From Bryum argenteum (lineage: Eukaryota; Streptophyta; Bryopsida; Bryales; Bryaceae), in NCBI GenBank assembly GCA_037043015.1, contig CM073321.1:3105001-3169000 (forward strand): a stretch of 64,000 nucleotides of DNA, written 5' to 3'. This document shows, in pieces, positions 7,201-46,325 of the stretch. The position numbers and the translations under genes are program-made. The notes beneath the pieces were generated by a model that saw nothing but the letters and a program-made list of their open reading frames with translations, did no database searches and had not been told where the DNA came from. Every line of letters starts with the position of its first letter. The first letter of the stretch is position 1.

Positions 7201-7213
7201 AAAATGTAGGTGT

Positions 7214-12812: not shown

Positions 12813-12897
12813 CTATGATCCTCCAATTTGGCAAGCATAAGAGACACTCTCCTAGCTATGATCCTCCAATTTGGCAAGCATAAAAGACACTCTCCAC
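12813..12897. repeat. 43-bp tandem duplication
   Basis: 'CTATGATCCTCCAATTTGGC' and the following bases occur at 12813-12855 and again at 12856-12897 with almost no change, so the duplication is recent. Confidence 0.85.
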
Positions 12898-12975
12898 GCC
12901 TCCACAGAAATCCTAGGCACTGATCTTCGGACCTGAAGGCGGCCGAGGAGCCCTGCAACAAAGGAACATGAAGCC

Positions 12976-15639: not shown

Positions 15640-17491
15640 TCAAACTGAGCCCCCTTATGTACTCTAATTCCACTAGTGGAACAACATTCTCTAAGTATTC
15701 TAAGAAAGCACCCGGTGATAATTTTGCACGATGCGCTACTTGTGATAAACTTGAATCCATGATCAAGTCTGTGGTGCCAGATTCATCGGAAGAGAATATG
15801 TGGATCAAGAAGCTTAAACTCCACTTGGATCATCAACAAACGCATCTAGAGTATTATTATACAAACCGGTTGTTGTCTATTCAGAGACCCAAAGATGTTC
15901 TATGCATTATTCACGACAAGATGGATCATGCAAAGATCGCTTGCCCATTGTTTCTCATAAAACAAAAACAAACGGTGCGTTAGTGAAACTTCCAATTGCC
16001 GTAACTAGAATAATTGCTCATGGGCACAGTGATGTCTAATACGCTCATTACGGACTTGACATTTATCCTAGTGATTGCAATCACACTGTTGGTACTATAC
16101 TGAAGCTTCTGCGAGATCTAGAACAGGTTCCGATATCGCATTTCAGGTCATTGTTTGCTGGATCTTGAACGCATCCATTGTTTGAGGCGTTGCTTGACGG
16201 AAAAGATGCTTATTTGAACTCTCTTTTACCTGAAACTGAGACATCTGGGGTTGCAGAGTCCTTATCTCCCGTTTTACATGTTCAACTTGACAACGCGGCG
16301 TCTGATAACAAAACCAGTTCATGTTTTGCTTTTTGTCTCTTCTGGTATACATGGGCGTGTTTTGTGAAATTTATATCAATTTTCTTTTGGTTAGACATAC
16401 TCATGAAGATATTTGCGCTCTCTTTGAACGTTGGAGTATGACTTTCAACGTGATTTTCAAGGAGAATGACTATTTGGCAATTCCTCTTTTGATGAAGTCA
16501 TTTATGGATGCAGAGGCACTTCCAGTTATTCCTCATTTGATTCAAGAGTTTCTGATTTCAAGGGTTTATCAAGAATTTTATTGTCTCTAAAGCCAAAATT
16601 CTTGTTGGTCATTTTGAAGGGCAACAATTTTAGTTTTTCAAACATGACAATGGATGGCCTATGACGAATTACAAATTGTTATGTTCTGACGATGAGTGTC
16701 TTCTATCGACCAGTGAAGGTATTTAATTGTGGAAGGAAAATGCAAATACAGGGATGCTTTTGATGCATACGGGAGAAATGAAACCTTTGGCGTCAATTCC
16801 TATGAAGAATCTGGATGAAATTGTAAAGGGCATATGAAGTTTTATTAAGTTGTGGGAGACTTCCCGTACTCAAGACTTATCTGGAAAATATCGACAACGT
16901 CACGGTTCCGTTTAACGCTACAAGCACGCTGTTAATCTTGCATTGGTGGCGCCCATGGAGGTTTCTTCATCTTTAAAGAATGGTTGTTGGGCTTTGACCC
17001 GAGTACCTTTGACTCAAGAATTTCTAAACACAGGCGAATTACACGAGAAATATGGGCAAGATCCCCATTTATTGGTCGCTTGTGTGATAGACCAAGAGAG
17101 TCATTTCGTGTTGGTCGAGATGCTTTTGCTGGATACTTTCTAGCTTTACGTCCTATAGATGGAGATGCTCAACCTTTTTTGGATTGCGAGGGCTTTGACC
17201 AATTTTGGTATTGATCGCAACAATCCGGGATGTATTCATATCCAATTTTTTGAACCTTTTAGCAAGCGCACTGTTGTTTATGATACCTATGTCGGTTGGG
17301 ATACGCAAAAGAATTTCAAATGGGTATTTGATGACAGCCAGGACCCGGTTTGGCTTTATGCAGATGCTATTTTTACGTTATGGAAATCTAGTGCAAAAGC
17401 TAGCTCTCAACGTCCAACAATCTTAATATCAGAGCAAGAGGTTAATATCATCAAACAAAGTATTGTGCAATTTGAGGCGGACGAGGATTAA
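15640..17491 (+). pseudogene. DUF7869-like gene, copy A, decayed
   Basis: In order: 'FARCATCDKLESMIK' (Cys pair), 'LLSIQRPKDVLCIIHDKMDH' plus 'AKIACPLF' (the family's 'I.DGMDqaKt.lP'), 'HYGLDIYPSDCNHTVGTIL', 'SPVLHVQLDNAASDNKT' ('QlDN...dNKNr'), 'LLVYMGVFCEIYINFLLV' plus 'RHTHEDICALFERWS' ('GHTHEDID.lF'), 'DAEALPVIPHLIQEF', then a C-terminal part with 'LFWIARALTNFGI...IHIQFFEPFSK' that looks BAH-like. The frame changes at least five times and stops are present. The second copy of this gene flanks the hAT element at 32 and 45 kb. I know the family only as a domain widespread in plant and oomycete repeats; its role is unknown and the family name is from memory. Confidence 0.6.
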
Positions 17492-17499
17492 GATGACAA

Positions 17500-20460: not shown

Positions 20461-20469
20461 CTTGTTTCC

Positions 20470-20720
20470 AAGCTATCTTGACCACTCAATCTAGTTAGAG
20501 TAGGATAAGGAAGGTCATGGGCCTCCTTCTCCTCCATCTTGTTTGTCTCATCAATCTCTTGTTTGTCTACCTCTTCTTCTTTGTAATGCTTAGTTAGAGT
20601 AGGAGTAGAGAGGTAGGTGGACCTCTCTCTCAATTTCGTTTGTCTTGATCTCTTTTTGAATTGCTTAGTTGTTGGTAGAAGGAGGCCGTGGGCCGCTTCT
20701 ATCAATTCTCTCAATCCCCA
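20470..20720. repeat. Degenerate ~80-110 bp repeat, three units
   Basis: Units begin 'CTTAGTTAGAGTAGG' or similar near 20490, 20588 and 20660, each followed by 'GG..GGCCTCTC' and a T/C-rich 'TTGTTTGTCT' stretch. Directly precedes the 188-bp repeat. Confidence 0.5.
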
Positions 20721-22655: not shown

Positions 22656-23148
22656 CAAGGTTGTCATACCGGGCGGGCACGCAGATCGCCCGTCCGTCCG
22701 CCTTGTCCGTCTTATTGAGCTCTCGCTCGGCCGATATGGTCAAACCTCTGTTGACTTTTAGTTTAGGTAAAACAACAAGGACTTGGTAAGGATTTGGGTA
22801 AAAACCAAGCCACTTGGCCGCCACGTACGCGCAACGTAGGATTGACGACAAGGCGGGTGAAAAGTGTTAGGGGCGGGTGAGAGGGGGCCGGAGCGTATAA
22901 AGGATGGCCGGGGCGGGTGAGGGAGGGCCGGGGCGGATAAAGGGGGGCGGGTTACCGCAAGGTGGGGGGGTACGAGGGGGCAGGGAAGGGTACGGGGGGG
23001 AGGGGGGGTACGAGGGGGCTAGGGCGGGTGAGAGGGGGGCTAGGGCGGGGGAGGGGGGAGGGTCGGGGCGGAGGAAGAGGGGGTTAGGCCGGAGGAAGAG
23101 GGGGTTAGGGCGGGGGAAGGGGAGGTCAGGGTGGGGAAGGGGTTTAAT

Positions 23149-23379
23149 CACCATCGAAACATTGATTTTCTGATAGAACAACATAGTCCCCAAACCGGAC
23201 GCATGCTTCGAGCCATGCAACAATCACAATTCTTAAGGGATATTCTTGAAGAAGACGGGCCTGCGAGGAGGACTCGATCAGCAGTTTGTAGACTTCAATT
23301 GGGCGGGGGTGAAGATTTGCCGGAGGGTACGAATGATGCCGATGCCGGCCCAAGCGGTGCAGCGACAGATGAGAACTAA
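23149..23379 (+). pseudogene. Gene-3 tail in the hAT derivative
   Basis: Encodes 'IDFLIEQHSPQTGRMLRAMQ', 'SQFLRDILEEDGPARRTRSA' and an acidic Gly-rich C-terminus, collinear with 38,719-38,967 in the large element. It retains CAA (Gln) at the codon that is a TAA stop at 38,755-38,757 there, so that stop arose by C-to-T change after the copies split. It lacks the RING domain because the internal deletion joins it to the left G-rich tract. Confidence 0.8.
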
Positions 23380-23842
23380 TTGAAGATTTTTGTAGTTGTG
23401 TAGCAACCAAGATATATTTTTCTTTTTTGTATCGTTAAACCATACTAAAATACATATGCTTTTCTATTGCAAACTTGTTGGCACACTCTATGCATGTGTT
23501 TATAATCATATGATCATGTGAATGTTAATTATCATGGTGTCATTGTATGGTTAGCTTGATAAGTAGGTTAAGTGGGAGAAAAAATAATTTTAAATGTTGT
23601 TACAACTAATAAATATCTTATAAACATAATAGAACAATAAAAAAAGAAACATACGGGTAGGAGATGTCAATCCAAAGTGACGGGGGAGAGAGGGGAAGTG
23701 TGGGTGAGGGGAGGTGGCGGGTGAAAGAGGGTGGAGAGGGGAGGAGAAGAAAAGAAAGGGAGGAGTAGGGAGAGAAGGGGAGGGAAGAGGAGAGAAGGGG
23801 AGGAAGGAGAAGAGGAGTGGAGGGATGGTCGGTCCAATCATT

Positions 23843-23917
23843 GCAAATCCAAACATTCTCCCACTTTATCCGGGATACTCCAAATCCCGGCTTTAGTGAG
23901 GGAATGTTTGGATTTGC
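23843..23917. repeat. hAT hairpin module, copy 1
   Basis: Arms GCAAATCCAAACATT and AATGTTTGGATTTGC are perfect complements at the outer ends. Inner ATCCGGGAT/ATCCCGGCT also pairs. It is followed by 'TAATTCTATTAATGATGCTT'. The same module is at 39,426-39,500 and 41,290-41,362. Confidence 0.85.
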
Positions 23918-24683
23918 TAATTCTATTAATGATGCTTCTTTGCAAAATATAAGATTGGTGAGAGCGAAAAGAAAAACCTTCGCAAACTTTTTCACAAAAC
24001 TACGTGGGGTGGGTGAGAGAGGAGGGGCAGGTTGGGGGGGGCGGTTTAGGGGGGGAGGGGCGGATTATGGGGGATAGGGGCGAGTTACGAGGGGTAGAGG
24101 CGGGGATCCGGGGGGTAAGGGTGGGTACCTGGGGGGTAGGGGCGAGTACCGGGGGGTAGGGGGGCGGATACCGGAGGGTTAGAGGCGGGTACCGGGGGTA
24201 GCAGCGGGTACTACTACAGCTAGGGGGAAGAAGGGCGGGTATCTGGGGGCCATGGTGGAGAGGGTAAGGGAGAGTGAGGGGAGAGTGAGGAGAGAGAGGG
24301 TGAAGAAGGTGAAGGGAGTGTGAAGGTGAGCGGGGGTGAGGGGGAGGTGAGGGTGAGTGGGGGGTGAGGGTGAGCGGAGGGTGAGAGTGAGGGGGCGGGT
24401 GAGGGTGAGTGGGGGGTGAGGGTGAGCGGAGGGTGAGAGTGAGGGGGCGGGTGAGGGGGAGGTGAGGGTGAGAGTGAGGGGGCGGGAGAGGGGGAGGTGA
24501 GGGGGGGTGCGGGTGAGGGGGCGGGTGAGGGTGAGGGGGGGGTGTGGGTGAGAAGGCGGGTGAGGGTGAGGGGGGGGTTGGGTGAGTGTGAGGAGGGAAT
24601 GGAGAGGGGAGGAGAAGAAAAGAAAGAGAGGAGTGGAGAGAGAAGAGGGGGGAAATGAAGACATAGTCAATCCAATCATAGAA

Positions 24684-24752
24684 AAGTCAAACATTCCCCC
24701 ACTATATCTAGGAAAGTCCAAATCTCGGCTTTAGTGAGGAATGTTTGGACTT
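24684..24752. repeat. hAT hairpin module, variant type
   Basis: Arms AAGTCAAACATTCC and GGAATGTTTGGACTT, one base of difference. A diverged relative of the 23,843 hairpin, standing at the junction of the G-rich tract and the AT-rich block. Its counterpart in the large element is 41,877-41,952. Confidence 0.75.
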
Positions 24753-25159
24753 CATTACCTTAAAAATACCTGGTGTTTGGAAGAAGCGGTCAAGAGGGGA
24801 TCCATAGAAAGATAGAATTGAAGTATCCGTACTTCCCCCTCTTATTCAAATTTGCCCCACCACACACCAATTCTCCCCTCTATTTCAAATTCGAGCTACC
24901 ACATCCCAAATGAATGATCTTAAAATTTGTGCTATTTCTCTCCAATCCCACCTTCTATTATGTTTATTTGATTCTTTTCTTCTCAATGCTATATTACAAA
25001 TAAATTAATCATCCTATTGGTTTAATCATATATTTGATTTTACGATCAAAATTTATATTAAGACTTAAAACTATACTGATGGGTGGTAGTATGGTTATTT
25101 CATTCTTCTTTAAATAACATTTTTATTTTAAAATTAAAAAAAATTTAAAATTAAAAAAA

Positions 25160-25620
25160 CGGAGCAACCCCCTTACGCCCCCTTACCCCCTCCCCTATCC
25201 CACCTACCCCCCCTTACTCCCTCCTATACCCCCCTACCCCCCCTTACTCCCGTACCCTCCCTTACTCCCGTACCCCCCCTTACTCCTGTACCCCCCCTAC
25301 TCCTGTACCCCCCTTACTCCCGTACCCCCTTCCCCCACCCCCGCCCCTCTTCCTTCCCCGCCCCCCCCCCCACTCTCCCGCTCCCGCCCCCCTTCCTTCC
25401 CCCCCCCGCCCCCCTCTCTCCCCGCTCCCCGCCTCTTCCACCCCTTCCATCCTTCCCCCGCCCCCCCCTCCTCACCCGCCCCGCACCTCGCCACCCGCTC
25501 CCCTCTCCTCCTCACCCGCCTCGCCACCAATGTCACCCGCCCCCTCAAAAGTTCACCCACCCTAACAAAAGTTCACCCGCCCTAGCACAATCTCACCCGC
25601 CCTGACGCCACGATGGACTT
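25160..25620. repeat. C-rich spacer of the hAT derivative
   Basis: Pyrimidine tract of CCCCTTACTCCCGTACCC-like units changing to CACCCGCC units near its end. The end piece 'GTCACATCCTACGTGGC' (25,625-25,641) is an inverted version of the left subterminal 'GCCACGTAGGA' sequence. Confidence 0.8.
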
Positions 25621-25689
25621 CACGTCACATCCTACGTGGCTTTTTATTGCAAAGTTTGTTACCTATGAAAAAATTACACCCTCCCTAAA

Positions 25690-31989: not shown

Positions 31990-32320
31990 CTGAAGTTGCT
32001 TTCGATGGTGTAGAGATGTATATGGATTCGCTCATTCTTCTTCCGGCAGCACCAATCTCGACTACGACTCTTCCTCCGGTGCTGCACATGCAACTTGATA
32101 ATGCTTGCTAGAATAGTAACGAATCGGCTTGTTTTTGCATTCATTTTACTGCTGCATATAAGGGCGTATTTTAAAAAAATACTTTCACATTGTGAGTCCC
32201 ACCGATGAAGATATTGCTGCTCTAGTCGAGCGAAGGAGTAATAAGCTCAAGAGCACGAGCGACCCTGCCGTTCCCCTTCTCATAAGATCCTTTCTAGACT
32301 CTAAAGATGAGCCGGTATTT
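31990..32320 (+). pseudogene. DUF7869-like gene, copy B, 5' segment
   Basis: Frames give 'EMYMDSLILLPAAPISTTTL', 'PPVLHMQLDNAC', 'FHFTAAYKGVF'-type sequence and 'SPTDEDIAALVERRSNKLKS', 'DPAVPLLIRSFLDSKDEPV', aligning with copy A ('SPVLHVQLDNAASDNKT', 'RHTHEDICALFERWS', 'PLLMKSFMDAEALPV'). Several stops. The sequence stops exactly at the hAT left end and resumes at 45,416. The 8 bp next to the element, CGGTATTT (32,313-32,320), is the left target duplication. Confidence 0.75.
32313..32320. repeat. Left target-site duplication of the hAT
   Basis: CGGTATTT, paired with CGGTTATT at 45,416-45,423 (one-base slip). The uninterrupted reading of the split gene, '..DEPV' then 'IFYLIEEALDFE', agrees with one duplicated octamer. 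Confidence 0.75.
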
Positions 32321-32524
32321 CAAGGTTGTCATACCGGGCGGGCACGCAGCCCGCCCGTTCGCCTTGTCCGTCCGATTGAGCTCTCGCTCACCCAATACGG
32401 TCAAACCTCCGTTGACTTTTCGTTCAGGTAAAAAAATGAGGATGTGGCAAGGGTTTGGGTAAAAACCAAGCCACTTGGCCGCCACGTACGCGCCACGTAC
32501 GCGCCACGTAGGACTGAGGACAGG

Positions 32525-32930
32525 GCGGGTGAAAGAAGGTAGGGGCGGGTGAAGGGGGGCCAGGGCGGGTAAGAGGGGTTCGGGGCGGAGGAGGGGGCCG
32601 AGCGGGGAAGGGGGGGGAGAGGGACGGGGAGCGGGGCGGGGAAGGGGTGTAGGGCGAGGAAGGGGGTGTAGGGCGAGGAAGGGGGGGCAAGGTGGGGCAA
32701 GGGGGGGGCAAGGGGGGGAGAGGGAGCAAGGGGGGGGAGGGCAAGGAGGGGGGGGGGGGGGGGGGGAGGGGGCAAGCGGGGGGGGGGGGGGGGCGAGGAG
32801 GGGGGGGGGGGGCAAGCGAGGAGGGGGCAAGGCGGAGAGAGGAGGGCAGGGTGGGGGAGGGCAGGGTGGAGGAGGGGGGGCAAGGGGGGGAGGGGGGGCA
32901 AGGAGGAGGGGTTGGGCCCACCCTGCTTTT
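32525..32930. repeat. G-rich tract after hAT left end
   Basis: GGGCGGGTGA-type units pass into long G-runs (up to 16 or more G near 32,750-32,810) with GGCAAG interruptions. Strongly strand-asymmetric and able in principle to form G-quadruplexes. Long Pro-rich minus-strand frames here are composition artefacts. Confidence 0.85.
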
Positions 32931-32967
32931 CCTTTTCCACACTCCAAGTGTCCCCACACCCCTCCCC

Positions 32968-33112
32968 TATAAAAGCCAAGTTGTTTCATTATTCACCTCA
33001 CTCCGCTAGTTGCCAGGAACTACTTCTTCATTGAGTTAGTGTGGGCACTCGGTGGGGTGTTTTTTCAGCACGAGGGAGGAGCTTTTGCCGTTTTTTTCTT
33101 AGATTCAAAATG
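32968..33112 (+). promoter_or_regulatory. Promoter/leader cassette of hAT gene 1
   Basis: TATAAAAG at 32,968, then 'ATTCACCTCACTCC', 'TTTTCAGCACGAGGGAGGAG' and a T-run just before ATG 33,110. TATA to ATG is 142 bp, identical to genes 2 and 4. The leader is related to theirs ('TTT(C/T)AGCACA..GGA.GG..TTTT..TTTTTT') but more diverged. Confidence 0.7.
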
Positions 33113-34196
33113 GAGGGTGAAGGGAGCCAAGGTTTGAGTATGCGACACGGAAATCAAGATTTAGAAACCCCCGATGACAGTCCTGAGGAAACAGAGGAAA
33201 TTCCAAAGGAGACAGAATCTACAAACCCTTCTTCATAGGGATCACGGAAAAAAAAAGGAAAAAAGAAAAAAAGTAAGGGGTCAAAAAAGAACAATTTGAT
33301 CTTGCTACGGGAGGAAGAGACACCACTTATGCCAATCGAGGAGTATCTCGAATTTGCTCGACGGAGTGGTATACATTTCTATGAGATACGAACTATGCCA
33401 GATTTGCATAGGTCTTATATTGGGGCGAATGAGGAAGGATACTACAATTTGTGTCAGGAGCTTCACCAATACCTGGAGCGTTGTTTTGAAAACAATTACG
33501 AACTTTGTGATTGAACCAACTTCTACGACCACGGTGCATGGTTGGACCTCAGACTCGAGGCTATCCGATTTACAACTACGTTGGGTTGTAGCATTCCGTA
33601 AACGACGACATGACTTGGCATTGACGTTACTTGTCATTGTGGAAAAGTGTCATAAACAAAATTATCTACACAACGACATTACTCCAACCAATGTTCTATT
33701 GCATTTCGATGATTGGAAACCAAATACGGTTTAGATCGAGCTTTGTGATTGGGGGATTTCAAGTCGAGTGGTAGAAGAAGTGCCATCCAAGTATGGATAT
33801 GTGAAGCAATAGGAGTTGGATGAAGAACGCACTTGGCGAAAATTTGTGGCACCGGAATTATGGTTTTTGTATGGTCCACGCGGTTCTGACAATCCCCTTG
33901 AGGTTATGGAATGCAAACTTATATATTCCAAGGCAGCTGATGCATTCTCCGCCGGGTGGTTAGCACAACACATTTGGCAAGAAGAGTACGATATGAAGTA
34001 CTTTATGCCACACCGCACAGACTGCGCCATGAAAAAGGAGTATCTCAAGTTCAAATTAAAAGCCCTCCAGGACCCAGATGTATCTAAAAGATTGACCGTG
34101 TCTGATATTATTGTGGCCTTGGAAAAGTATCCATTTAGTTGGACCATGCCCATGTGTTTTTTCCGTAATTCAGCTATTTTGTTTAGCGGTCTCTAA
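33110..34196 (+). pseudogene. Protein-kinase-like gene carried by hAT (gene 1)
   Basis: ATG 33,110 opens an acidic, then Lys-rich N-terminus ('EETEEIPKETES', 'KKKGKKKKSKGSKK'). The C-terminal half has kinase motifs in order: catalytic loop 'YLHNDITPTNVLLHFD' (H-x-D....N), 'ELCDWGISS' (DWG for DFG), 'VAPELWF' (APE), 'DAFSAGWLAQHIW' (D.WS.G) and 'DPDVSKRLTVSDIIV' (DP..R.T). No glycine loop or clear VAIK lysine is visible upstream, so the N-lobe is diverged or lost. Defects: TAG at 33,236, 33,732 and about 33,810, and a frame change near 33,500. About 360 residues if continuous. I recognise it as kinase-like but not its subfamily. A captured host gene or a long-term element gene are both possible. 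Confidence 0.7.
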
Positions 34197-34439
34197 AGTT
34201 AGCGTGTGCCTATTGTATGTAGAAGGATTGCATGGATAATTAAAATACTATATGTACTTCCAATTGTGCACATACATATAATATACGCGACAACTTCTCT
34301 TATTCGATGCATTTCTACATCTTTGTATGATATATTTAATTGCATTGTTTTGGTTTGGGTGCACATATTTATTGGTTCTATACCTTGCCAAATACCACTC
34401 AACCTATGCATGAATCGGTTTGTAAATACCACGAAAAGA

Positions 34440-35225
34440 AATATTTTAAAAAATCAAAAAAAAAATTTAAACAATTAAACAAAAAGTTAAAAAAAAGTAT
34501 AAAAAAGTGAAAATAAGTAAAGAACGCTGCTACCCCCCTTACCCCCCCCCCCGCTACCCCCTTAACCTTTCTTCTACCCCCTCTACCTCGCCCCTATCCT
34601 CGCCCCCCCTAACCCCCCTCCTCCTAACCCCCCTCCCCTTCTCTATAAAATTTTTTAAAAATATTTAAATATATTTAAAAATTTATATAAAAATTTATAA
34701 AAAAAAATTTTAAAAATTTTAAAAAATTTTAAATTTTTTTTTAAAAAAGTCCAAAAAAATTTTAAAAATATTACAACCCCCCCATTCCCCCCTATCCCCC
34801 TTAATCCCTCTCTTACCCCCTCTACCCTCGCCCCCTACTCCCTCTACCCCTCCCTAACCACCCTCCCCCACCCCTAACCTCCCCCCCCGCCCCCTACCCC
34901 CGCCCCCTACTCCCTCTACCCCTCCCTAACCACCCTCCCCCACCCCTAACCTCCCCTTCCGCCCCTACCCCTCTACCTCCCCCCCTAACCCCCCCCCCCC
35001 GCCCCCTCCCTCCCCCTCTCTCTCACCCCCCTACTCCGCCCTAGCCTCCCCTACCCCCCCCGCTCCCTCCCTTGCCCTATCACTCCCCCTACCCCGCCCT
35101 AGCCTCTCCCTCTTCCGCCCTGGCCCCCTCCTCCCCAGCCCTGGCCCCCCCCCCCCGTGTCCCCCCCCTCGGCCCGATCCCCCCTCTCGTTTTGGAGAAT
35201 CCGCACTAGCTTGGTGCTAGGGTCG
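34440..35225. repeat. A/T-rich then C-rich spacer upstream of hAT gene 2
   Basis: Poly(A)/AAATTTT tracts at 34,440-34,770 alternate with CCCCCTACC/CCCCTCC pyrimidine tracts at 34,535-34,640 and 34,775-35,180. A ~60-bp piece ('CCCCCTACTCCCTCTACCCC' and on) is duplicated at about 34,830 and 34,905. The same kind of AT-plus-C spacer precedes the transposase gene at 42,300-42,770. Confidence 0.75.
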
Positions 35226-35233
35226 GTTGGGGG

Positions 35234-35391
35234 GGGGTCCAACCACTATATAAGAGGCGGACCCTCCATTTGTAACCCGTCCTTCCTAGCTCCAACGATT
35301 CACTCCTCCTCACAAGGGTTGGATTCAGGATTGAGGAAGGCGTTTCAGCACATTTGGGGAAGATTTTCGAATTTTTTTGTCTACAACGATG
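35234..35391 (+). promoter_or_regulatory. Promoter/leader cassette of hAT gene 2
   Basis: GGTCCAACCACTATATAAG with TATA at 35,247, then 'CATTTGTAACCCG', 'CCTAGCTCCAACGATTCACT', 'TTTCAGCACATTTGGGGAAG' and ATG 35,389. It is near-identical block by block to the cassette at 42,798-42,954, and the TATA-ATG distance is 142 bp in both. Confidence 0.85.
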
Positions 35392-36875
35392 GCGACACCA
35401 GGTGCGATCCGCAAGGGAGAGAAAGACAAAGATCGAGTGCGACAAGGAAAACAGCATCGGGCCCGTCTTCATGTGTTAAATACTCCGTTAAAATTGGCAT
35501 TCAGAGGCTGGGAAGATGTAGCTGACCCATGGGATATTGACCATGCAAAGCAATACATTGAGTGGTGCCACATCGACAAATCCTTCCAGCCTGAACGCCA
35601 TATTTTACACTTGAGAAGCAACAAGGCCAATTTGCGCTACTTCACCAACCCGGAGTTCCTTTCCTAATGTCTTCAAATTTACCAACTCTTTTACGCCACG
35701 AAGTTACCAAAGAAGAACCAGGTCAGATTATATTTAGTGCGCGGCGTTCATGTGGAGATCATTTTGAAGAAGAGGTTCGATTGGTCTACTGTGAAGAATT
35801 TAGAAGGCAAGGCTCAAGCACCACGAGTACAAAATGGTTTCCCTGGCTTTGGAATTTGGGCGGTAGGGGATCCTGGGTGGTTTCCCTTGGCCGTCAGACC
35901 TATGGATTTATACCCTCATAACCATATGTCTAACTCCCCGCCTGATTCCGACTCCAATGGCTCCCACGAGATAGTTTTACCTCGACGCAAAATGATGGAA
36001 AGGAATAAGCGGAAGAAGCTAGCTCGATCATTAGAGCCTATGCCCATGGCTTTATTGGTCCAAGTAAGACAACCAATTCCGGTGCAGCTACTTCTCGACA
36101 TAGTAGATGTAGAGATGGTTCATGCAGTTGGTAGAAATATTGAGCCCCAAGAAGTGGAGGTTGTTGTGGCTGGAGGCGTGCCGGATAAAATTCCACCAGT
36201 AGATTTGTCCGTCGAGATGGAGCATTTGATACAAGAGAAGGCCAGATTCAGCAATTGATGGGAGAAAATCAACACTTGAAGGAAGAGAATCAACGGCTGA
36301 AAGAGGACATGCAAAGATCTAGCGGCGAGATCTCATCCCAGCAACGACGTATCATGGAGCTTGAGGGGGCCATGGCAAAGGGGAAGGGGGCTTCTACATC
36401 ACAAACACGACCTAGTACATCGACTAGTCCAAACATATTGGTCATAGGAAGTGTGCTTGACTCCTTGGCATTCGATAATGCAGATTTCAACGAAGTATTA
36501 GGCTCGCTTGCAACACCCCTTGAAGTTGATTTGGTAGATGTTTGACGAGATAATGAGGTCTTGAAGAGTCGAATGAATCATATGGCTGAGCAATACTACT
36601 AGTGGAAGTTGACATGCATTTTATCCGTTGCCAAGGGTGACCAAATAGCTGAGGAGTTGAGGAAGATCGATAGGACATGGAAGGATCATAATAAAGAGCA
36701 GGTATTTGGTTTGACATCATGGGCAATTGTAGACGAGATGTTTCCGGATGAATTGCCAAAGAAACCGGATGGAACCAGCGTTCGGGAAGTTTTTTGGAAT
36801 ATTAAGGTTAATTGCCTACATCCAAAAAAGGGCATAGCTTATTTCTCCAAGAGCATAGGCTACATCCTACAATGA
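35389..36875 (+). pseudogene. Unknown coiled-coil gene carried by hAT (gene 2)
   Basis: Starts 'MATPGAIRKGEKDKDRVRQG' (the first three codons ATG GCG AC are shared with the transposase gene). Then an N-terminal domain with 'AFRGWEDVADPWDIDHAKQY' and 'FPGFGIWAVGDPGWFPLAVR', a basic patch ('RRKMMERNKRKKLARSLE'), and a heptad-rich coiled coil ('QHLKEENQRLKEDMQR', 'RRIMELEGAMAKG'). Its C-terminal domain has 'WKDHNKEQVFGLTSWAIVDE' and 'NIKVNCLHPKKGIAYF'. Defects: TAA 35,665, a frame change near 36,245, TGA 36,543 and TAG 36,598. About 495 residues if continuous. No family recognised. Coiled coil plus basic patch suggest DNA or protein binding, perhaps a transposition accessory factor, which is inference. 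Confidence 0.6.
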
Positions 36876-38022
36876 TGAAAATTTGTAGGTTGAAAATTTG
36901 TAATACTTCTAAGTTACTGGCCAATTGCCTTTAAATCAAAATTTGAGTAGGTTGTAATCCTTCAAAAAATTTATGTAATAGGTTTTGGATTCAATATTAA
37001 TTCATTAAATAATTAATATCTTTGGCAGGAATTGAACCTGGTAGCCAGGGTTTTACATCATATTTTTTGCTGTTAGATGAGGTGCAATAAAAAAAAAATG
37101 GTGCAACGATTTCAGAAACGGTTACTAAACCCATATTCCCATCATCTCATCAACGGCACAGGAGAGATGAGAGCAAGAAAGCCGAAGAAGCGAATGATAC
37201 ATGGGGAAGATGACAAAATGTGAAGAATGTGTTAGTTCCTGACTAACAGGAAAGAAGGTGGTGAAGGGTGCACACACACTCACTTTGAGATTGGGATACA
37301 TGTGGAACGGGGGAGGTTTGACAAACTACCCAATGTGTTTTAAATGCACAGCTAGTTCGCCATCCTCCACAACAGAAGCCAAATCCTTCCGCCTCGAAGC
37401 AGATCTTGATCGATCTCCAACACGTAAGACGTCGTCTCGGCCCAAGTTCAAGCGGCAATTAATATTTGCAAGCGCCCCTAAGTCCTCCAGATCTGCCTTT
37501 TGTTCAAGGTTTCAAAGATCAAAAAGAAGAACTACACCATGTGTGCTACCAGAAGCTAGTGTGAGAAGAAGTGGCTTCTAGGGTGGTAGAGTTAGATATC
37601 GAGAATGCGATAAGCCAAGAACAATTTGCAAGATCGCGGCTGAAACAAGCGGGAGAAGGAAGCTGGCAGGGGGGACGAAAATAGGGCAACGTTGTTGCAA
37701 GTGACCAGGGGTAGGTTGTTAGGGTTTCTAGTTACTAGGGTTTCATTGATATTGATGTCCATGGCACACCCAATAGCCCCAGGTATGAGCCTAGGGATCC
37801 ATATGTAGACAAGTTGATTTTCTACATTGGAGAATTATAATTGGCTAGAATCCTCTCTTCTGTAATATCTATAGGCAAAAAATCCTACATTTTTTTTATT
37901 GGAGAGGCTAAAATCAAATGCTTCTAAATTTCCTTAGGTTTTACGTCCTATACTTTCAAAAAATTTAGGCTATTTCACAAGTTTCATAGGCTGCATTTAT
38001 ATTAGACTTAGGTTCTTCCCGG
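36876..38022. other. Spacer between hAT genes 2 and 3
   Basis: AT-rich with some GC-richer pieces. A tRNA box-B-like GGTTCAATTCC is on the minus strand at about 37,030-37,042, without a matching box A. The usual element cassette (CCACTATATAA..) is absent, so gene 3 seems to have lost its promoter or first exon, or to be spliced from upstream. Confidence 0.45.
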
Positions 38023-38967
38023 ATGCTGGATGGAACAATTGACTGGGCCCAATACGAGTGGGATTTTGAAAACACGACGGACATCAAGAAAGCAGCCAAA
38101 CTGTGGCCTACACCAGCAACGTTCGTGACGGATGGTGAAAATTGTGCGACGTGTTGCAACCCCTTTGGACCTGAAGGAGGATTTTGCGTAGGCACTTGCC
38201 GCCACGTGTTTCATCTGATTTGCCTCATTGGCTTCATGGTTGTTTGACGACAATGTCTACTATGTAAATCTCCCTTCCACAAGCGCTTGTACAACCTTTT
38301 TGGATTAGAGGATTACATGCCACCGCATTGGGTGTATAATAAAACCAATGCAAAAGACCACAAAGGGAAATGGGGAGAAGACTTGGTATGGAGTTGGAAA
38401 TTGTCTTGCACTTCTATACAGAAGCAATTGGCTGCCCTTGAATTCGGCTGTGAAAGGGATCCGGAGGCAATTACGAGGGCGTGTCATCATTTAATTCCAT
38501 CAAATGTCTCAAATGCCAATGGCAAGCAAAACTTCTTCTACCAGGTTTACAGCGGGTATTGGGACGAAGCGCACAAGGAGTTTCGATTTGGGATTCATCC
38601 AGCAGGGCTAAGATGGAAGTCAAATGGAATAATGTATTCGTCGGAAGAGCGTTCCGACTGCGATTATGAGATGAACTGGGCAACAGATCAATCCAAATGG
38701 ACAGACCTTTTACATCATCAAAGCATTGATTTTCTGATGGAACAACATAGTCCCTAAACCGGACGCATGCTTCGAGCCATGCAACAATCACAATTCATGA
38801 GGAATATTCTTGAAGAAGACGGGTCTGCGAGGAGGACTCGATCAGCAGTTTGTAGACTTCAATTGGGCGGGGGTGAAGATATGCCGGAGGGTACGAATGA
38901 TGCCGAGGCCGGCCCAAGCGGTGCAGCGATGGACAAGAACAAATTGAAGATTTTTGTGGTTGTGTAG
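38023..38967 (+). pseudogene. RING-H2-like gene carried by hAT (gene 3)
   Basis: One reading frame of about 315 codons interrupted only by TGA 38,245 and TAA 38,755. It shows C-x2-C ('CATC'), then 'CRHVFHLIC' (C-x-H-x2-H-x2-C) and 'CLLC', the C3H2C3 ligand pattern of RING-H2 E3 ubiquitin ligases, followed by 'KSPFHKRLYNLFGLEDYMPP'. The rest ('WSWKLSCTSIQKQLAALEFG', 'FRFGIHPAGLRWKSNGIMYS') is unknown, and the tail is acidic and Gly-rich. The derivative at 23.2 kb has CAA in place of the second stop. The upstream sequence lacks the shared cassette, so the true start is uncertain. An E3 ligase role in transposition or host defence is inference. Confidence 0.65.
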
Positions 38968-39239
38968 CAACCAAGATATACTTTTCTTTTTCTGTATCGT
39001 TAAACACTATTGAAATACATATGCTTTTCTATTGCAAACTTGTTGGCACACTCTATGCATGTGTTTATAATCATATGATCATGTGAATGCTAATTATCAT
39101 GGTGTCATTGTATGGTTAGCTTGATAAGTAGTTAAGTGGGAGAAGAAATAATTTTAAATGTTGTTACAACTAATAAATATCTTATAAACATGATAGGACA
39201 ATAAAAAAAAATAAACATATGGGTAGGGGATGTCAATCC

Positions 39240-39422
39240 AAAGTGCCGGGGAAGAAAGGGGAAGTGAGGGTGAGGAGGGGGTGAGGGTGAGGGGGGGGCG
39301 CGGGTGAGGGGGGGTGGAGAGGGGAGGAGAACAAAAGAAAGGGAGGAGTGGGGAGAGAAGGGGAGGGAAGAGGAGAGAAGGGGAGGAAGGGGAAGAGGAG
39401 TGGATGGATGGTCAATCCAATC
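39240..39422. repeat. Purine-rich tract after hAT gene 3
   Basis: GGGGAGGAGA/GGGTGAGG units. The same block recurs at 23,680-23,830 in the derivative and at 41,175-41,270 within this element, each time just before a hairpin module. Confidence 0.8.
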
Positions 39423-39425
39423 ATT

Positions 39426-39500
39426 GCAAATCCAAACATTCCCCCACTTTATCCGGGATACTCAAAATCCCGGCTTTAGTAAGGCAATGTTTGGATTTGC
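39426..39500. repeat. hAT hairpin module, copy 2
   Basis: Arms GCAAATCCAAACATT and AATGTTTGGATTTGC pair perfectly, as does most of ATCCGGGAT/ATCCCGGCT. The following ~60 bp ('TAATTCTATTAATGATGCTT', 'TGCAAAACATAAGATTCGTG') is shared with the copies at 23.8 and 41.3 kb. Confidence 0.85.
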
Positions 39501-39599
39501 TAATTCTATTAATGATGCTTCTTTGCAAAACATAAGATTCGTGAGAGAGATGGAAAAAAACCTTTGCAAAAATTTTCAAAAAAACAACATGGGGTGGGT

Positions 39600-41170
39600 G
39601 AGAAGGGAGAGGCGGGTTACGGGGGGTAGGGGGGCGGGTTATGGGGAGGGGCGGGTTACGGGGGTAGGGCGGGTGCTGCGCGGGGTAGGACGGGTACGAG
39701 GAGGGGGAAGAGCGGAGAGGGTGAGGGGAGTGAGGATGAGGGGGTGAGGGGTGAGATGGTGAGGGGTCGGGGGTCAAGGGGTCAAGGGGTCGGGCGTCGT
39801 CAGTCGGGGGGTCGGGCGTCGAGGGTCGGGGGGTCAAGGCGTCGAGGGTCGGGCGTCGGGCGTCGCGGGTCGAGAGTCCGGAGTGGGTAAGGGGTCGGGG
39901 GTCGGGGTGACGACGGACGGGGGTCAGGGGGTCAAGGAGTGCGGGGGTCAAGCGGTCAGAGGTTCAAAGGGTCAGGGGGTCAAGAGGCCGGGGGTCGGGG
40001 TCAAGGAGTGAGGGGGTCAAGGGGTCGGGGTTCAAAGGGTCGGGGGTCAAGAGGTCGGGGGTCAGTCGGGGTGAGGAGGAGAGGGGTGAGGAGGTGAGAG
40101 GTTAGAGGGTGAGGTGGTGAGAGGGTGAGGTGGTGAGAGGGTGAGGTGGTGAGGGGGTCGAGGGTGAGGGGGTGAGGGGTGAGGTGGTGAGGAGGTTAGG
40201 AGGTCGGGGTCGGGGGTCGGGAGGTCGGGGGGGGAGGAGAAGGGGTGAGGGGACGGGGAGTCGAGGGTCGGGGAGTGAGGGGGTCGGGGTCGGGGAGGTG
40301 AGGGGGACAGGAGTGAGGGGTCGGGGGGTCGGGAGGTGAGGGGGACAGTCGAGTCGGGGGTCGGGTGGTGAGGGGTTCGAGGGGTCGGGAGGTCGGGAGT
40401 CGGGGGTGAGGAGGTGAGGGGACAGGGGAGTCAGGAGGTCAAGGGGTCATGGGGTCAGGGGGTCAGGGGTCGGGGAGAGGCGATTAGGGGGTGCGGGGGT
40501 CACGGGGTCAGGGGTTAGAGAGTTAGGGGGTCAGAGGGTCAGGGGGTCAGAGGGTCAGGGGGTCAAGGGGTCAAGGGGTCAGGGGTCAGGGGGTCAGGGA
40601 GTCAGGGAGTGAGGGGGTCAAGGGGTCAGGGATTCAGGGGGTCAGTGAGTGGGTGAGGGGGTGAGGTGGTGAGGGGATGAGGGGGTCAGGAGGTCAGGGA
40701 GTGAGGGGGTCAAAGGGTCAAGGGGTCAGGGGGTCAGGAGGTGAGGGGGTCAGGAGGTGAGGTGGTGAGGGGGTCAGGGCGTCAGGAGGTCAGAGGGTTA
40801 GGGAGTGGGTGAGAGGGTCATAGGGTCAGGGGGTCAGGGGGTCAGGGGGTCAGACGGTCAGGGAATGGGTGAGAGGGTCAGGGGGTTAGGGGGTGAGGGA
40901 GTGAGGGGGTCAAGGGGTCAGGGGGTCGGGGGGTCAAGGGGTGAGGAGGTGAGGGGGTGAGGAGGTGAGGGGGCAAGGTGTTGAGGTGGTGAGGGAGTCA
41001 GGGAGTTAGAGGGTCCAGGGGTCGGGGGGTCAGGGGGTGAGGAGGTGAGGGAGTCAGGGAGTCAGGGGGTAAGGGGGTGAGAGGGTGAGAGGTTGAGAGG
41101 AGGTGCGTGTGAGGTGGGTGAGGGTGAGGTGGGGGTGAGGGTGAGGGGAGGTGAGGATCAGGGGGCATGT
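39600..41170. repeat. 1.6-kb G-rich minisatellite (GGGGTCA / GGGGTGA)
   Basis: Imperfect head-to-tail heptamer and octamer words GGGGTCA, GGTCAGG and GGTGAGG with clusters of GTCGGGG. Nearly free of C except in GTC. Absent in this expanded form from the 22.7-kb derivative, which has only a shorter GGGTGAG tract, so it has expanded in one copy. Confidence 0.85.
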
Positions 41171-41289
41171 GAGGGTGAGGGGGGGGGAGGAGAAGAAAAA
41201 AAAGGGAGGAGTGGGGAGAGAAGGGGAGGGAAGAGGAGAGAAGGGGAAGAAGGAGAAGCGGAGTGGATGGATGGTCAATCCAAATATTG

Positions 41290-41362
41290 CCAATCCAAAC
41301 ATTCCCTCACTTTATCCGGGATACTCCAAATCCTAGCTTTAATGAGGGAATGTTTGGATTTG
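41290..41362. repeat. hAT hairpin module, copy 3
   Basis: AATCCAAACATTCCCTCA and TGAGGGAATGTTTGGATT form 18-bp perfect arms. Duplicate of the 39,426 module together with its purine-rich lead-in, indicating a segmental duplication within the element that flanks the expanded G-rich array. Confidence 0.85.
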
Positions 41363-41876
41363 CTTATTCTATTAATGATGCTTCTTTGCAAAACATAAGA
41401 TTCGTAAGAGAGATGAGAAAAACCTTTGCAAAAAATTTCGAAAAACTACGTGGGGTAAGTGAAAGCGGAAAGGTGGGTCACGGGGGGGATGGGCGGGTTA
41501 CAGGGGTTAGGGCGGGTGCGACGTGGGGTAGGGCGGGTACGACGGGGGTAGGGGCGGGTGCGACGGGGGGTAGGGCGGATACCACGTGGGGTAGGGGCGG
41601 GTTTTGGGGGTAGGGCAAATACCGGGGGATAGGGCGGGTGCTCGGGGGATAGGGCGGGTCTTGGGGGGGTAGGGCGGGTATCGGGAGGTAGGGTGGAGGG
41701 GGTAAGGGGGAGTGAGGGGAGAGTAAGGGAAGTGAGGGTGAGGGGGGTGGGGGTGAGGGGGGTGAGGGGAAGGTGGAGGGTGAGGGGGGGGTGAAGGGGG
41801 GGAGGAGAAGAAAAGAAAGAAGGGAGTGGGATAGAAGGGGAGGGTAGGGAAGGCATAGTCAATTCAATTGTAGAAA

Positions 41877-41952
41877 AGTCAAACATTTAGTCCACTATAT
41901 CCGGGAAAGTCCAAATTCCGGCTTTAGTAAGGAACGATTGGACTTCATTACT
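41877..41952. repeat. hAT hairpin module, variant type, copy 2
   Basis: 'AAAGTCAAACATTTAGTCCA' on the left and 'AAGGAACGATTGGACTT' on the right form an imperfect stem around 'ATATCCGGGAAAGTCCAAAT'. Counterpart of 24,684-24,752, followed by the same AT-rich block. Confidence 0.65.
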
Positions 41953-42359
41953 TTAAATATACCCGGTAGGTGGAAGAAGGGGCCAAGGGGGGATCCAAGG
42001 AAAGAGAGAATTGAAGTTTCCGTACTTCCCCCTCTTATTCAAATTGCCCCACCACAAACCAATTCCTCCCTCTATTTCAAATTCGAGCTACCATATCCCA
42101 AATGAATGATCTTAAATGTGTGCTATTTCTCTCTAATCCCACCTTGTATTATGTTTATTTGATTCTTTTCTTCCCAATGCTATATTACAAATAAATTTAT
42201 CATCCTAATGGTTTAATCATATATTTGATTTTACGCTCAAAATTTATATTACCACTAAAGAATATACTGGTGGGTGGTATTATGTTTATTTGATTCTTCT
42301 TCAAATAACATTTTATTTTAAAAAAATTAAAAAAAATTAATAAAATTAATAAAAATAAA

Positions 42360-42770
42360 AAAAACGCAGCAACCCTCCTTATACCCCCTTACCCCCTCTC
42401 CTATCCCACCTCCCCCCCTTTCCCCCTCCCCTACTCCACCTTTCCCTCTCCCCCTACCCCCCCCCCTTATCCCTCTCCCTACCTTCGCTTACTCCCCTAC
42501 CCCCCCTCTTATCCCTACTCCCCCTTACCCCTCCATCTACCCCCCATTACTCCCGTACCACCCCCTTCCCCCTACCCCCCATTACTCCCGTACCACCCCC
42601 TTCCCCTACCCCCCCTTTCTTCCTCCTTCCCCCTACCCCCTTCCTTCCTCCTTCCCCCTACCCCCTTCCTTCCTCCTTCCCCTACCCCCCTTCCTTCCTC
42701 CTACCCCCGTAACCCGCCCCCCCCCTTAACCCGCCCCCCCCCGTAACCCGCCCCTCCCCCCATAGAAATC
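42360..42770. repeat. C-rich spacer upstream of hAT transposase gene
   Basis: CCCCTTACCCCC/CCTTCCTTCCTCC pyrimidine tract following an A-rich run. A 'CCCTTCCTTCCTCCTTCCCC' unit is repeated about four times at 42,605-42,705. It ends in CCGCCCC units before the promoter cassette. Confidence 0.8.
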
Positions 42771-42797
42771 CCCATCTTCCCATCCATGTACCATGGG

Positions 42798-42954
42798 GGG
42801 TCCAACCACTATATAAAGGGCAAACTTCTCATTTGTAATCCGCCCCTCCTAGCTGCCAAGATTCACTTCTCTTCGTGAGGGTCGGATTGGGGATTGGGGA
42901 AGGGCGTTTTAGCACATTGGAAGGAGGTTTTTGAATTTTTTTTCTACAAGGATG
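42798..42954 (+). promoter_or_regulatory. Promoter/leader cassette of hAT transposase gene
   Basis: GGTCCAACCACTATATAAAG with TATA at 42,810, 'CATTTGTAATCCG', 'CCTAGCTGCCAAGATTCACT', 'GTTTTAGCACATTGGAAGG' and ATG 42,952. TATA-ATG 142 bp. Paralogous to the gene-2 cassette. Confidence 0.85.
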
Positions 42955-45300
42955 GCGACCAGCGCTAGCTGACAGCGGAGCTAATGTCAAAATTGGTTCA
43001 CGCAAGACAATAGAACAAAGAATTATTACGAGGGTTTACATGATATACCAAATTGGCCACTAAAGCCTTCATCTTTTAGACTCGAATGCGATAGGAAGCT
43101 AACGGAGGACAACAAGAGAGTGGAATTTGTGGTATGAATTTCATGATGATGGGAACATTACTTGTGTTTTTTGCAACACAACATTCACCTACAAACGAAT
43201 TGGAGCATTCATGCACTTAGCCTACATGCCGAAATCCGAGAAGAGTGTGTATTCCCTTGTACCGCATCGTGTTCGCAGCAGGTTTGAAAATTGTAGGGAC
43301 ATAGTTCTCGCCAGAATGAGTGATGAAGACATGTACGGTGGAGATTCTACTATAGATGGTTCCTCTACAGGAATTCCTAGTGGTTCTTCATGCCATGTAG
43401 GTGTTGATACAAACACAGGGGTTGGAGTGAGGGGTGGAAGTCCTCATAGAGGAGGCCGTGATGCGTGCGTGGTAGAGGGACGTGAGAATCTACACTCCAT
43501 GTCAGCTGTCCGAGGCGCATCAAATTCTACGAGGTCCGTAGCAGTACGCCAACGTAGCATGGAGGAATCTTTGAACACCGCGAAGAGGAGAGAATTGGAT
43601 AAAAAGTGGGCAGATTGTTTATATAAGGCAAATATCCCATTCAACGTGGCCAGGAACCCGTTTTTTATTGAAGCGGTTTTAGCTACTTCCAAGGCGAGGT
43701 TTGACTATGTTCCTCCATCTTATCACCAATTCAGGACTAATCTCATAGAACCCAGCAGATTGCGAGTCGAGAAGGAGATTGAATCAAGAACTAGATTTGC
43801 AAAATCTGCGTATGGGGTGTCCATATGCACCGATGATTGGGACGATGTTAATCGTAGGCCCCTCATGAATGTGATGATGACGTGCCCACCTGGAGATGTG
43901 TTTCTAGGAAGCATTGACACCACTGGGCAGACAAAATCTGCGACGTATATAGCAGACAAACTCAAAGTATTCATTGAAAAGGTGGGACCTAAGAATGTGA
44001 CTGCAGTGTGTACGGATAACGCTGCAAGCATGCTTGGAGCAATGAAATGTATCATCGAGGAGTATCCATGGATTTTCTCGCAAGGATGCATAGCTTATAC
44101 TTTGGATCTCCTATTGGAAGATTGGACAAAAATCAACATCTTCGAGGACCTTATCAAGAGGGCAAGAAAGTTGTGCTATTATAGTAGGAACCATCATGCA
44201 ACAATGGCAACATTTTGTGAATTGAGTCCGAAACTGACAATCTTGGTGCCAGAGGAGACGCGCTTTGCATGCAATATGTTGATGCAGGACCGACTCATCA
44301 AACTCAAGCCTGTCCAAGAGGAATTGAAAGACCATCCCCGAGTTCAGAACTATTCCAATACATCGAGGGACAGAATGAGAGGGGAGCGGGCAGCCACCGC
44401 CATGCGCAATATCGTGCGCACCATTGAGGATGGGGCCTTCTGGCAGCGGTGCAAGAATTTCATTTATATGACGGAGGAGGTTTTAAGAGCAGTACGCGTG
44501 TTTGATGGCCGAGAACCCGCAATGGGTAAGGCATGGCTCATACCACAAGGATTGCATCAACATGTGACGTCATTCAGGGATCCACCATTTAGCGTCCGAC
44601 CAGATATTGCAACAATATTGGAGGATTCATTCAAAGCGAGGAGGGCCATGTGTTTTACGGATCTTCACTACGCAGCTGCCCTCTTGAATCCATATCTCAA
44701 GGAGAATGCAGCGCTAAAGCAAGACGGCGTAGCCCTCAGTGCGCTATATCGTGTAATTCACAAATTAAAAGACGTGGTGGTGTGAAGTACAAAGACGTCA
44801 TGTCCGAATTACAAGAGTATAACGAAGGTACAGGGCCATATAGCCCCGACATTGCCTTCAACATCCGTGCAACAAACATACTCCCTCATCAATGGTGGTA
44901 TAGGATTGAAAATCAGTACCTTTCCGAAATGGCTGTACGCATATTGTCTCTCACATGTTCAGCTAGTTCATGTAAGCGTAATTGGAGTGCTTACCCATTT
45001 GTGCAAAATAAGAGCCGAAATCCATTAGCCCCAGAAAAGGCAGAGACATTGGTGTATATCTATACCAATGGCCGTGTATTACAAAAAATACCAGGGCCCG
45101 AACTACTTCGCTAGTATGAAGAGAATGTCAACTCAGAGAATTCTGACCTAGATGCCCTCGGCCCAATTCGAGTAGATGAGCCCAACCGAGAGTTCCTACA
45201 AGAGGAGGACGATAGTGACATGGAAGCCAATTGGGAAGGTAGAGAGTACCGACCAAATCCAGATCTCTGGGCTTTTTACTGCAAAGTTTCTTACCCATGA
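42952..45300 (+). pseudogene. hAT transposase (BED / DUF659 / hATC)
   Basis: Begins with ATG 42,952 but meets TGA 42,970 and TAA 42,979, and shifts frame near 43,120. From 43,127 it is open for 552 codons. BED-like finger 'WYEFHDDGNITCVFCN..F', DUF659 region with 'SICTDDWDDVNRRPLMNVMM' (first catalytic Asp), 'NVTAVCTDNAASM' (second Asp) and 'GCIAYTLDLLLEDW'. After a frame change near 44,760 comes the hATC dimerisation part 'MAVRILSLTCSASSCKRNWS' and 'APEKAETLVYIYTNGRV', then TAG 45,112 and an acidic tail ending at TGA 45,298. About 780 residues if continuous, normal for this plant hAT branch. It lies nearest the right end and is the only gene that defines the superfamily. Confidence 0.9.
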
Positions 45301-45415
45301 AAAAATTACACACCCCCTACAATGAAGGTGGGCGGGCACGCCCGTCCGTCCGGGACAACTCGTACGTCCCTTTTGTCCACTCGATTACCTCAACATGCCT
45401 GATATGACAACCTTG

Positions 45416-46325
45416 CGGTTATTTTCTACTTGATTGAGGAAGCATTGGATTTCGAGATGTTCATCAAAGGTTACCCGTGTCATGGCGTTGAGGCGTTATC
45501 GGGGCATATTAGTGCTCAACAATTCAGGTTCTTTAAAGGTGCTTCCATTTGGCCTTTGATGCAGTATAAGATTCTATGTACGGATAGCGAGTGGCTTCTT
45601 CAAGATAGTGAACGGGTTAGGTTGTGGAAAGTATTGTCTAGTGGTCAACCTCAGGTTTGTCCTGGAGATCCAACGTTACTAGTTCCAAATAAAATAACAA
45701 ATATTGATGACATCCGAAAAAGAGTAAGTGGTTTTATGAGCTTTTGGGAGTCTTTGGCGGATGCAGATCCGACATGCGACTACCGTAGACATCATGAGCA
45801 ATTCATTTACTATTGGAAAGCAGTTTGTGAGGCTTTAGACTTACTTGTTCCTACTCCTATACTTAGGAATGAATCTTGGCCTACTTCTATCTACTGTCCA
45901 AGTGAAGAAGATCAAGTTGAAGATAATGAGTAAAGCAGTTTGTTGTTGACCCTCTGTTCGTGGAACAAAGGAGATTGTCCACATGCATCATTCGGAGGGA
46001 TACCTACTTGTGCTTTGTTCGGCTCATGAAGACCTCAAGAAGTTTTGGATTGCTCGTGCGTTGAGCAACCCTAATGCTACTGTAAAGCATCCTCAAGAAA
46101 TGCTCATTGAGTATTGAAAGCCCGTATCTTCTAAACATGTCAATCCTGACACTTACCAAGGGTAGAATACAATGAGAGGTAACTCTTGGAATAAAGATAC
46201 GGAGTATGATCCAACTTGAGTAGCTACAAGTTTAATAATGGGAGCTTGGAAGCCAAGATTTCGTCTTGAAATCGTCAATCCCAAGATGTGCATACTGGAG
46301 CTACAAAGGATAATTATTAAAGCCT
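45416..46325 (+). pseudogene. DUF7869-like gene, copy B, 3' segment
   Basis: Continues the 32-kb segment: 'IFYLIEEALDFEMFIKGYPC', 'LSGHISAQQFRFFKGASIWP', 'MQYKILCTDSEWLLQDSERV', open to a TAA at 45,931-45,933. Then, in another frame, 'HEDLKKFWIARALSNPNATV' and 'AWKPRFRLEIVNPKMCILEL', matching copy A's 'LFWIARALTNFGI' C-terminal domain. Before the insertion this was a single gene. The right target duplication CGGTTATT is at 45,416-45,423. Confidence 0.75.

Follow-up and report, generated by a model that had tools for sequence, protein, structure and literature searches.

Giant hAT elements of the moss Bryum argenteum encode a kinase-like and a RING-H2 protein alongside their transposase

Described systems and the element in the window

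The hAT transposons are textbook one-gene cut-and-paste elements. The VANDAL elements belong to the MULEs, a superfamily other than hAT, and the hallmark of Starships is a tyrosine-recombinase captain at one end. Here we describe a hAT element with more than one gene in a 64,000-nucleotide stretch of DNA from Bryum argenteum (the window; G000:C1:3105001-3169000, in a genome of 258.8 Mb and 25 contigs). The element lies at 32321..45415 of the window on the + strand (13,095 bp), as delimited by its terminal inverted repeats (TIRs), an imperfect target-site duplication (TSD) and its alignment with a second copy, copy A. We consider it likely that this region represents a single dead copy from a giant hAT family whose full form encodes a kinase, a protein combining an N-terminal domain (N-domain), a coiled coil and a RING-H2 domain, and a DUF659-type transposase; what the accessory genes do, we infer.

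The element is like other hATs (Ac, Tam3, Hermes and the DUF659-type plant hATs) in its DUF659 and Dimer_Tnp_hAT domains, short TIRs, 8-bp TSDs and deletion derivatives. Its transposase has both DUF659 and the hAT C-terminal dimerisation region, and the 8-bp TSD, imperfect in the window, is exact in 4/4 further copies of the same family (family 1) and in 3/3 copies of a second one (family 2). The sections available of a plant hAT survey give [T/C]AGNGNNG as the start of hAT TIRs (PMC6027215); family 2, with CAGGGTTG, fits this start (the left end of its element B is diverged), and family 1, with CAAGGTTG, departs from it at the third base. What sets these elements apart from other hATs is their giant size, 12.8-13.1 and 19.8 kb, and their conserved extra genes. 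In the same sections, the longest consensus among 276 plant hAT sequences is 7,144 bp, and no hAT is detected in Physcomitrella (PMC6027215). Among the matches listed in searches of the open literature on hATs with accessory, kinase or RING genes, on giant hATs and on moss hATs, with subscription papers and Repbase outside the scope, we found no element of this kind.

Three other systems invite comparison. According to PMC10398659, the VANC proteins of VANDAL elements bind tandem repeats in noncoding DNA and cause silent marks to be lost. The moss elements are like Arabidopsis VANDAL/VANC in having an element-encoded accessory protein and noncoding tandem repeats, and unlike it in having a kinase and a RING protein; the likeness to VANC is one of description rather than of sequence comparison. 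Pack-TYPE elements likewise hold host-like coding sequence within TIRs, as the portion of PMC8903248 at hand describes. Unlike non-autonomous Pack-TYPE elements with their captured fragments, however, the moss elements have long open frames and a transposase together, and they carry whole genes, one set in two families, under constraint. With Starships and other giant cargo transposons, described in the accessible part of PMC11623301, they share very large size and extra genes. They differ in having a hAT transposase and a fixed rather than a variable gene set; no tyrosine-recombinase captain was found in the open reading frames (ORFs) scanned with Pfam, which showed a hAT transposase instead.

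The gene set and its recurrence in two families

The left TIR (CAAGGTTGTCATACCGGGC, 32321..32339, + strand) matches the reverse complement of the right TIR (45397..45415, - strand) at 17/19 bases, and the two are flanked by CGGTATTT (32313..32320) and its imperfect partner CGGTTATTT (45416..45424). Within the window, the 23-base left end occurs only at 32321 and 22656 when up to 3 mismatches are allowed, and it occurs in 0/100 shuffles. An earlier note on this DNA had described these inverted ends, the imperfect 8-bp duplication and kinase-like, coiled-coil, RING-like and hAT transposase frames all on one strand, and our analysis bears out each of these points, the strand being the + strand. 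The element is an old, defective copy of a multi-copy family.

The earlier note had also counted four genes. We find three, the supposed coiled-coil and RING-H2 frames being one gene cut by a nested insertion. Gene 1 (33110..34196, + strand) is kinase-like and broken by in-frame stops and shifts, with the HND...N loop motif and CDWG still legible. Gene 2 (35389..38967, + strand) encodes a novel N-terminal domain, a coiled coil, a RING-H2 domain and a C-terminal domain; besides being split at 36776-38028, it carries several stops and one frame shift. Gene 3 (43103..45300, + strand) is the hAT transposase (DUF659 and Dimer_Tnp_hAT), whose C-terminal part is shorter than that of copy A and which reads SCKRNWS where copy A reads SCERNWS (K for E). 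Copy A (C10:15913000-15927000; 12,794 bp; exact TSD GTCTCCGG) aligns with the window element, and there a single frame runs from the coiled-coil end straight into the RING, with the insertion site uninterrupted; copy A is also imperfect, its gene 2 being spread over several frames. In family 2, the N-domain/coiled-coil/RING protein is a single open frame of 777 amino acids. This frame and the empty site in copy A rule out the coiled coil and the RING as separate genes. The nested hAT-like insertion itself (36776..38028, 1,253 bp) has TIR-like ends CAGCGTTCGGGAAG / CAGCATCCGGGAAG and the TSD GATGGAAC at 36768-36775 and 38029-38036. It is an independent element, because 7 copies with 91-95% identity exist elsewhere in the genome (six of whole length, one of bases 1-1248). 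Further loci share mainly its two ends.

The earlier note had called for a genome search with the two ends and the protein frames. In our searches, the best 40 of 416 candidates for the 300-bp left end and the best 40 of 432 for the 146-bp right end were scored, and all of these matched; protein matches were likewise the best-scored candidates (e.g. 78 of 984), so that an unlisted part is not thereby absent. Further rows were left out if they coincided with a listed locus or lay no more than about 2 kb from one (15/150, 19/150, 9/150 and 16/90 in four protein searches), and the listed protein matches were sorted by eye into the close and the diverged family. The close-family matches (left end 40, kinase 80, coiled coil 63, RING 68, transposase 52, right end 40) were then chained into clusters, the clustering itself demanding one strand.

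The outcome was 149 same-strand clusters. At least two different parts occur in 80 of these, and none of the 80 deviates from the order left end, kinase, coiled coil, RING, transposase, right end. At least one accessory part accompanies the transposase in 42 of its 52 clusters, and the kinase and the RING are both present in 30. Both listed ends are found in 14 clusters: 6 hold the kinase, the coiled-coil-RING gene and the transposase, 1 holds the kinase and the coiled-coil-RING gene without the transposase, and 7 (3.2-6.7 kb) hold no listed gene. A transposase as the sole gene, which is usual in hATs and not defining for them, occurs in 0/14. Among the listed matches, then, the genes do co-occur between ends in one order, and the contrary outcome foreseen in the earlier note, ends mostly enclosing the transposase alone, did not appear.

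Exact 8-bp TSDs, GTCTCCGG, GCCGAGAT, GCGGTGAG and GCTTTGAC, flank all 4 other family-1 copies for which both flanks were available. Leaving the window's aside, 17/29 right ends agree in all 146 bp with at least one further right end, and therefore parts of family 1 probably moved recently, the window copy being old. Contig C1 (44.1 Mb, 17% of the genome) holds 59/80 family-1 kinase matches, but 9 of the best 40 right ends. This is as expected if old copies accumulate on C1 while young ones are dispersed, and it fits a poorly recombining (possibly sex) chromosome.

Every family-1 protein has diverged relatives in the genome, mostly at 30-43% amino acid identity, and these are again grouped together. 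Their elements, family 2, have the TIR CAGGGTTGTCTTRYTAGACA. Element B, on C1, is 19,816 bp long, with the right TIR CAGGGTTGTCTTATTAGACA, a diverged left TIR and the exact TSD ATATAAGT; two further copies have the exact TSDs CACGCCAC and GACTGCGT. Element B contains the N-domain/coiled-coil/RING gene, further N-domain genes and the transposase, and has the kinase on the opposite strand; another copy, copy C, is about 96% identical to it over B 3528-20664. With the kinase strand flipped, 24/129 family-2 clusters hold at least three parts, in a single order. The family-2 ends recur as well, with 314 and 250 candidates, of which the best 40 of each were scored. Beside a family-2 element, about 2.5 kb (C1:4667500-4670000, the end of L073) reads N. 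We hold the structural reading, namely the ends, TSDs, gene set, gene order and two families, with very high confidence.

Pfam finds DUF659 (3.1e-34) and Dimer_Tnp_hAT (1.3e-6) in the window transposase, and likewise in copy A and family 2. The motifs C(T/S)DGW, CTDNA and SCERNWS are all present in copy A, in family 2 and in the grass relative P0169 (6 of 66 homologues were aligned); we take the D of the first, the D of the second and the E of the third to be the hAT acidic catalytic residues. In another grass relative, P0172, the C-terminal transposase stretch is absent. The family-2 kinase matches Pfam Pkinase above the cut-off (1.4e-10), and its K, E, HND, N and CD(W/F)G are kept in 19/19 aligned sequences (the query and 18 of 93 homologues). 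Several RING models matched the RING, each below its cut-off, and the ligands are kept in 12 of the 13 rows that span the domain (10 C3H2C3 and 2 C4HC3, with 1 disrupted); 2 more rows end ahead of it. A search of solved structures found the kinase weakly MAP kinase-like (best 5e-4) and the RING like RNF24 (0.0024), and gave no match for the transposase. Homologues outside this genome number 93 for the kinase, 14 for the RING protein and 66 for the transposase, with graded identities; one kinase relative, P0066, at 32% identity, comes from the moss Ceratodon purpureus. In keeping with a moss host, MIR1023, a moss microRNA family, is matched in this genome at 1.7e-9, though below its cut-off. 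The kinase relative P0067 and the transposase relative P0158 are filed under 'Bacilli bacterium' metagenome assemblies, perhaps through contamination by plant DNA.

We compared nonsynonymous with synonymous substitution rates (dN/dS) between copies. In family 2, dN/dS was 0.22 and 0.34 for the RING protein, 0.60, 0.60 and 0.38 for the kinase, and 0.38 for the transposase. Since dead copies raise such values, these figures would be upper bounds for the active lineages.

Possible roles of the extra genes

The earlier note took the extra genes for standing cargo or accessory factors of a giant hAT family, and our results support their being permanent accessory genes: the genes co-occur in one order, a second, diverged family has them too, active-site and ligand residues are kept, and the dN/dS values indicate purifying selection. 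'Functional part of the element' therefore fits better than 'cargo'. That two old hAT families have the same kinase and RING genes suggests that the elements bring their own regulatory proteins.

Several results weigh against this interpretation. Of the 149 family-1 clusters, 10 consist of the transposase only and 29 of the kinase only (in neither group are both ends listed), and these are probably mostly old fragments among the matches listed, although some may be genuine transposase-only elements. A same-strand coiled-coil or RING match lies within 12 kb of 46/80 family-1 kinase matches, and for 6/80, all on C1, such a match lies on the opposite strand; exceptions to the family-1 arrangement therefore exist. 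Neither outer end of element B aligns with copy C. Constraint on some parts is weak, since dN/dS for the C-terminal half of the family-1 kinase has a median of 0.60 (382 pairs) and the family-2 N-domain paralogue Npar1 reaches 0.83, with few changes. Finally, the N-terminal domain has no Pfam match, and the structure model of the 777-amino-acid protein is poor (mean predicted local distance difference test score, pLDDT, 50.8; predicted template modelling score, pTM, 0.26), so that nothing here is based on it. As for the six opposite-facing loci, e.g. C1:39091435-39095773, close-family kinases there face away from the coiled coil and RING as in family 2, and these loci are possibly an intermediate subfamily or rearranged copies.

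The genes are set among noncoding tandem arrays. In the window element, a G-rich array lies just inside the left end (32521..32911), C-rich arrays lie ahead of gene 2 (34818..35101) and ahead of the transposase gene (42384..42759), and G-rich arrays with a duplicated spacer unit fill the stretch from gene 2 to the transposase (39264..41798). In family 2, a GGTCGC/GCGACC-type motif, picked after inspecting the sequence, occurs at 81 places in element B and at none inside the listed ORFs, which cover 10,385 of the 19,816 bp. It sits near both ends and between the genes, except in the tail-to-tail gap of 150 bp that follows the RING gene; the G- or C-rich arrays of family 1 occupy comparable kinds of place. 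The putative DNA-binding N-terminal domain recurs in at least three further family-2 genes, on both strands (L071-L073, L076-L078), with at least four occurrences in one family-2 copy, and this repetition suggests an expansion of a putative DNA-binding family.

We propose a possible mechanism on this basis. The transposase would carry out ordinary hAT cut-and-paste, and the accessory proteins, expressed together with it, would aid the element, either through control of its own expression or by countering silencing. By analogy with VANC proteins and noncoding tandem repeats, the N-domain proteins may bind the noncoding tandem arrays that lie in the spaces between genes and close to the two ends; the RING could then target ubiquitination to a silencing factor that is bound, and the kinase could modulate the complex. 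We offer these steps of array binding, ubiquitination and kinase action tentatively, giving them somewhat less than an even chance. With the same reserve, a giant hAT lineage might encode a kinase and a RING-type ubiquitin ligase that is aimed at its own arrays by a new putative DNA-binding domain and that counters silencing or times transposition.

If this mechanism is true, these would be the first hATs known for which a transposase is not enough, and they would present an analogue of VANC anti-silencing based on ubiquitin and phosphorylation. The two families, deeply separated and yet alike in their kinase and RING gene, show that a toolkit of several genes can arise and be maintained within a hAT lineage, as in some MULE elements, and they offer a natural system for testing whether ubiquitination and phosphorylation serve transposons against host silencing. 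The analysis also defines a conserved protein domain without a Pfam match. Annotators should be aware that 'genes' for kinases and RING proteins in genomes of this sort are in some cases transposon genes.

Instead of regulating expression or countering silencing, the accessory proteins may be co-factors of transposition, acting in synapsis, excision or cell-cycle timing. In other hATs, transposase binding sites lie just inside the ends, and repeat arrays are found just inside both ends here too; a kinase, moreover, could time excision. The arrays, however, adjoin the internal genes as well as the ends, and hATs elsewhere are known to move by transposase alone. We regard a pure co-factor role as rather unlikely.

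It is more doubtful still that the genes are passive cargo, host genes captured once in the manner of Pack-TYPE elements and of no help to the element. Kinases and RINGs are common host folds, dN/dS for the family-1 kinase falls only moderately short of 1 and for Npar1 is higher, and half of the end-to-end clusters hold no listed gene, so that mobility in trans is possible without genes on board. Yet passengers would hardly have been kept in both families at about 30-43% protein identity with the kinase active-site residues invariant in 19/19 sequences, nor would the RING dN/dS be expected at 0.22-0.34, not above the transposase value of 0.38. We therefore judge passive capture improbable.

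A composite, in which unrelated genes or elements entered a small hAT by chance, we consider very improbable. One genuine nested insertion (36776-38028) and the 10 transposase-only clusters are what such an origin would leave, whereas dozens of loci with one gene set and order, and again in a second family, are not. The full-length copies stand at several sites flanked by different exact TSDs and are therefore separate insertions, not duplications of one locus. Chance or nested cargo as the source of the gene set is rejected on the co-occurrence tables of listed matches.

A relic of a large DNA virus, or a virus-transposon fusion bearing kinase and RING genes, is scarcely credible: such fusions exist, e.g. 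Teratorn in the part of the literature available, and one kinase fragment has a weak poxvirus kinase match below the cut-off (E 0.0089), but the ORFs scanned with Pfam, which were not every ORF, include no viral structural or replication gene, and two scans for relatives of the RING protein in viral contigs gave pattern matches of which 0 were confirmed.

Promoter cassettes, the derivative and other features

According to the earlier note, three genes share a promoter cassette with the transposase. This is upheld for gene 2, whose promoter-like cassette (35230..35391, + strand, TATATAA to ATG) is identical at 132/163 positions to that of the transposase gene (42793..42954, + strand). The kinase gene has a TATA-containing cassette (32960..33112, + strand) that is weakly related by shuffle comparison: it scores 73 against the transposase cassette (shuffle maximum 49) and 40 against the gene 2 cassette (shuffle maximum 42), the latter being at chance level. 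In copy A, the kinase cassette scores 62 against the transposase cassette (shuffle 39) and 56 against the gene 2 cassette (shuffle 38). Being the 3' half of gene 2, the RING frame lacks a separate cassette.

A deletion derivative of the same family lies at 22656..25687 on the + strand. As the earlier note had held, it retains the left end, the spacers and the tail of the RING gene; its right terminus is gone, the match stopping at about 25,687 and lacking the right end's final ~97 bp. By eye, a near-palindrome, CCAAACATTCCC...GGGAATGTTTGG, is seen in the spacer units of the element (39431-39494 and 41290-41360) and of the derivative (23840-23912), beside the arrays; it is possibly a terminator, a small-RNA source or a binding site. 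Elsewhere in the window, 61646-62024 holds a 19-bp tandem array (GGTGGTTGTCGTGGGGCAT-like) that is unrelated to the element.

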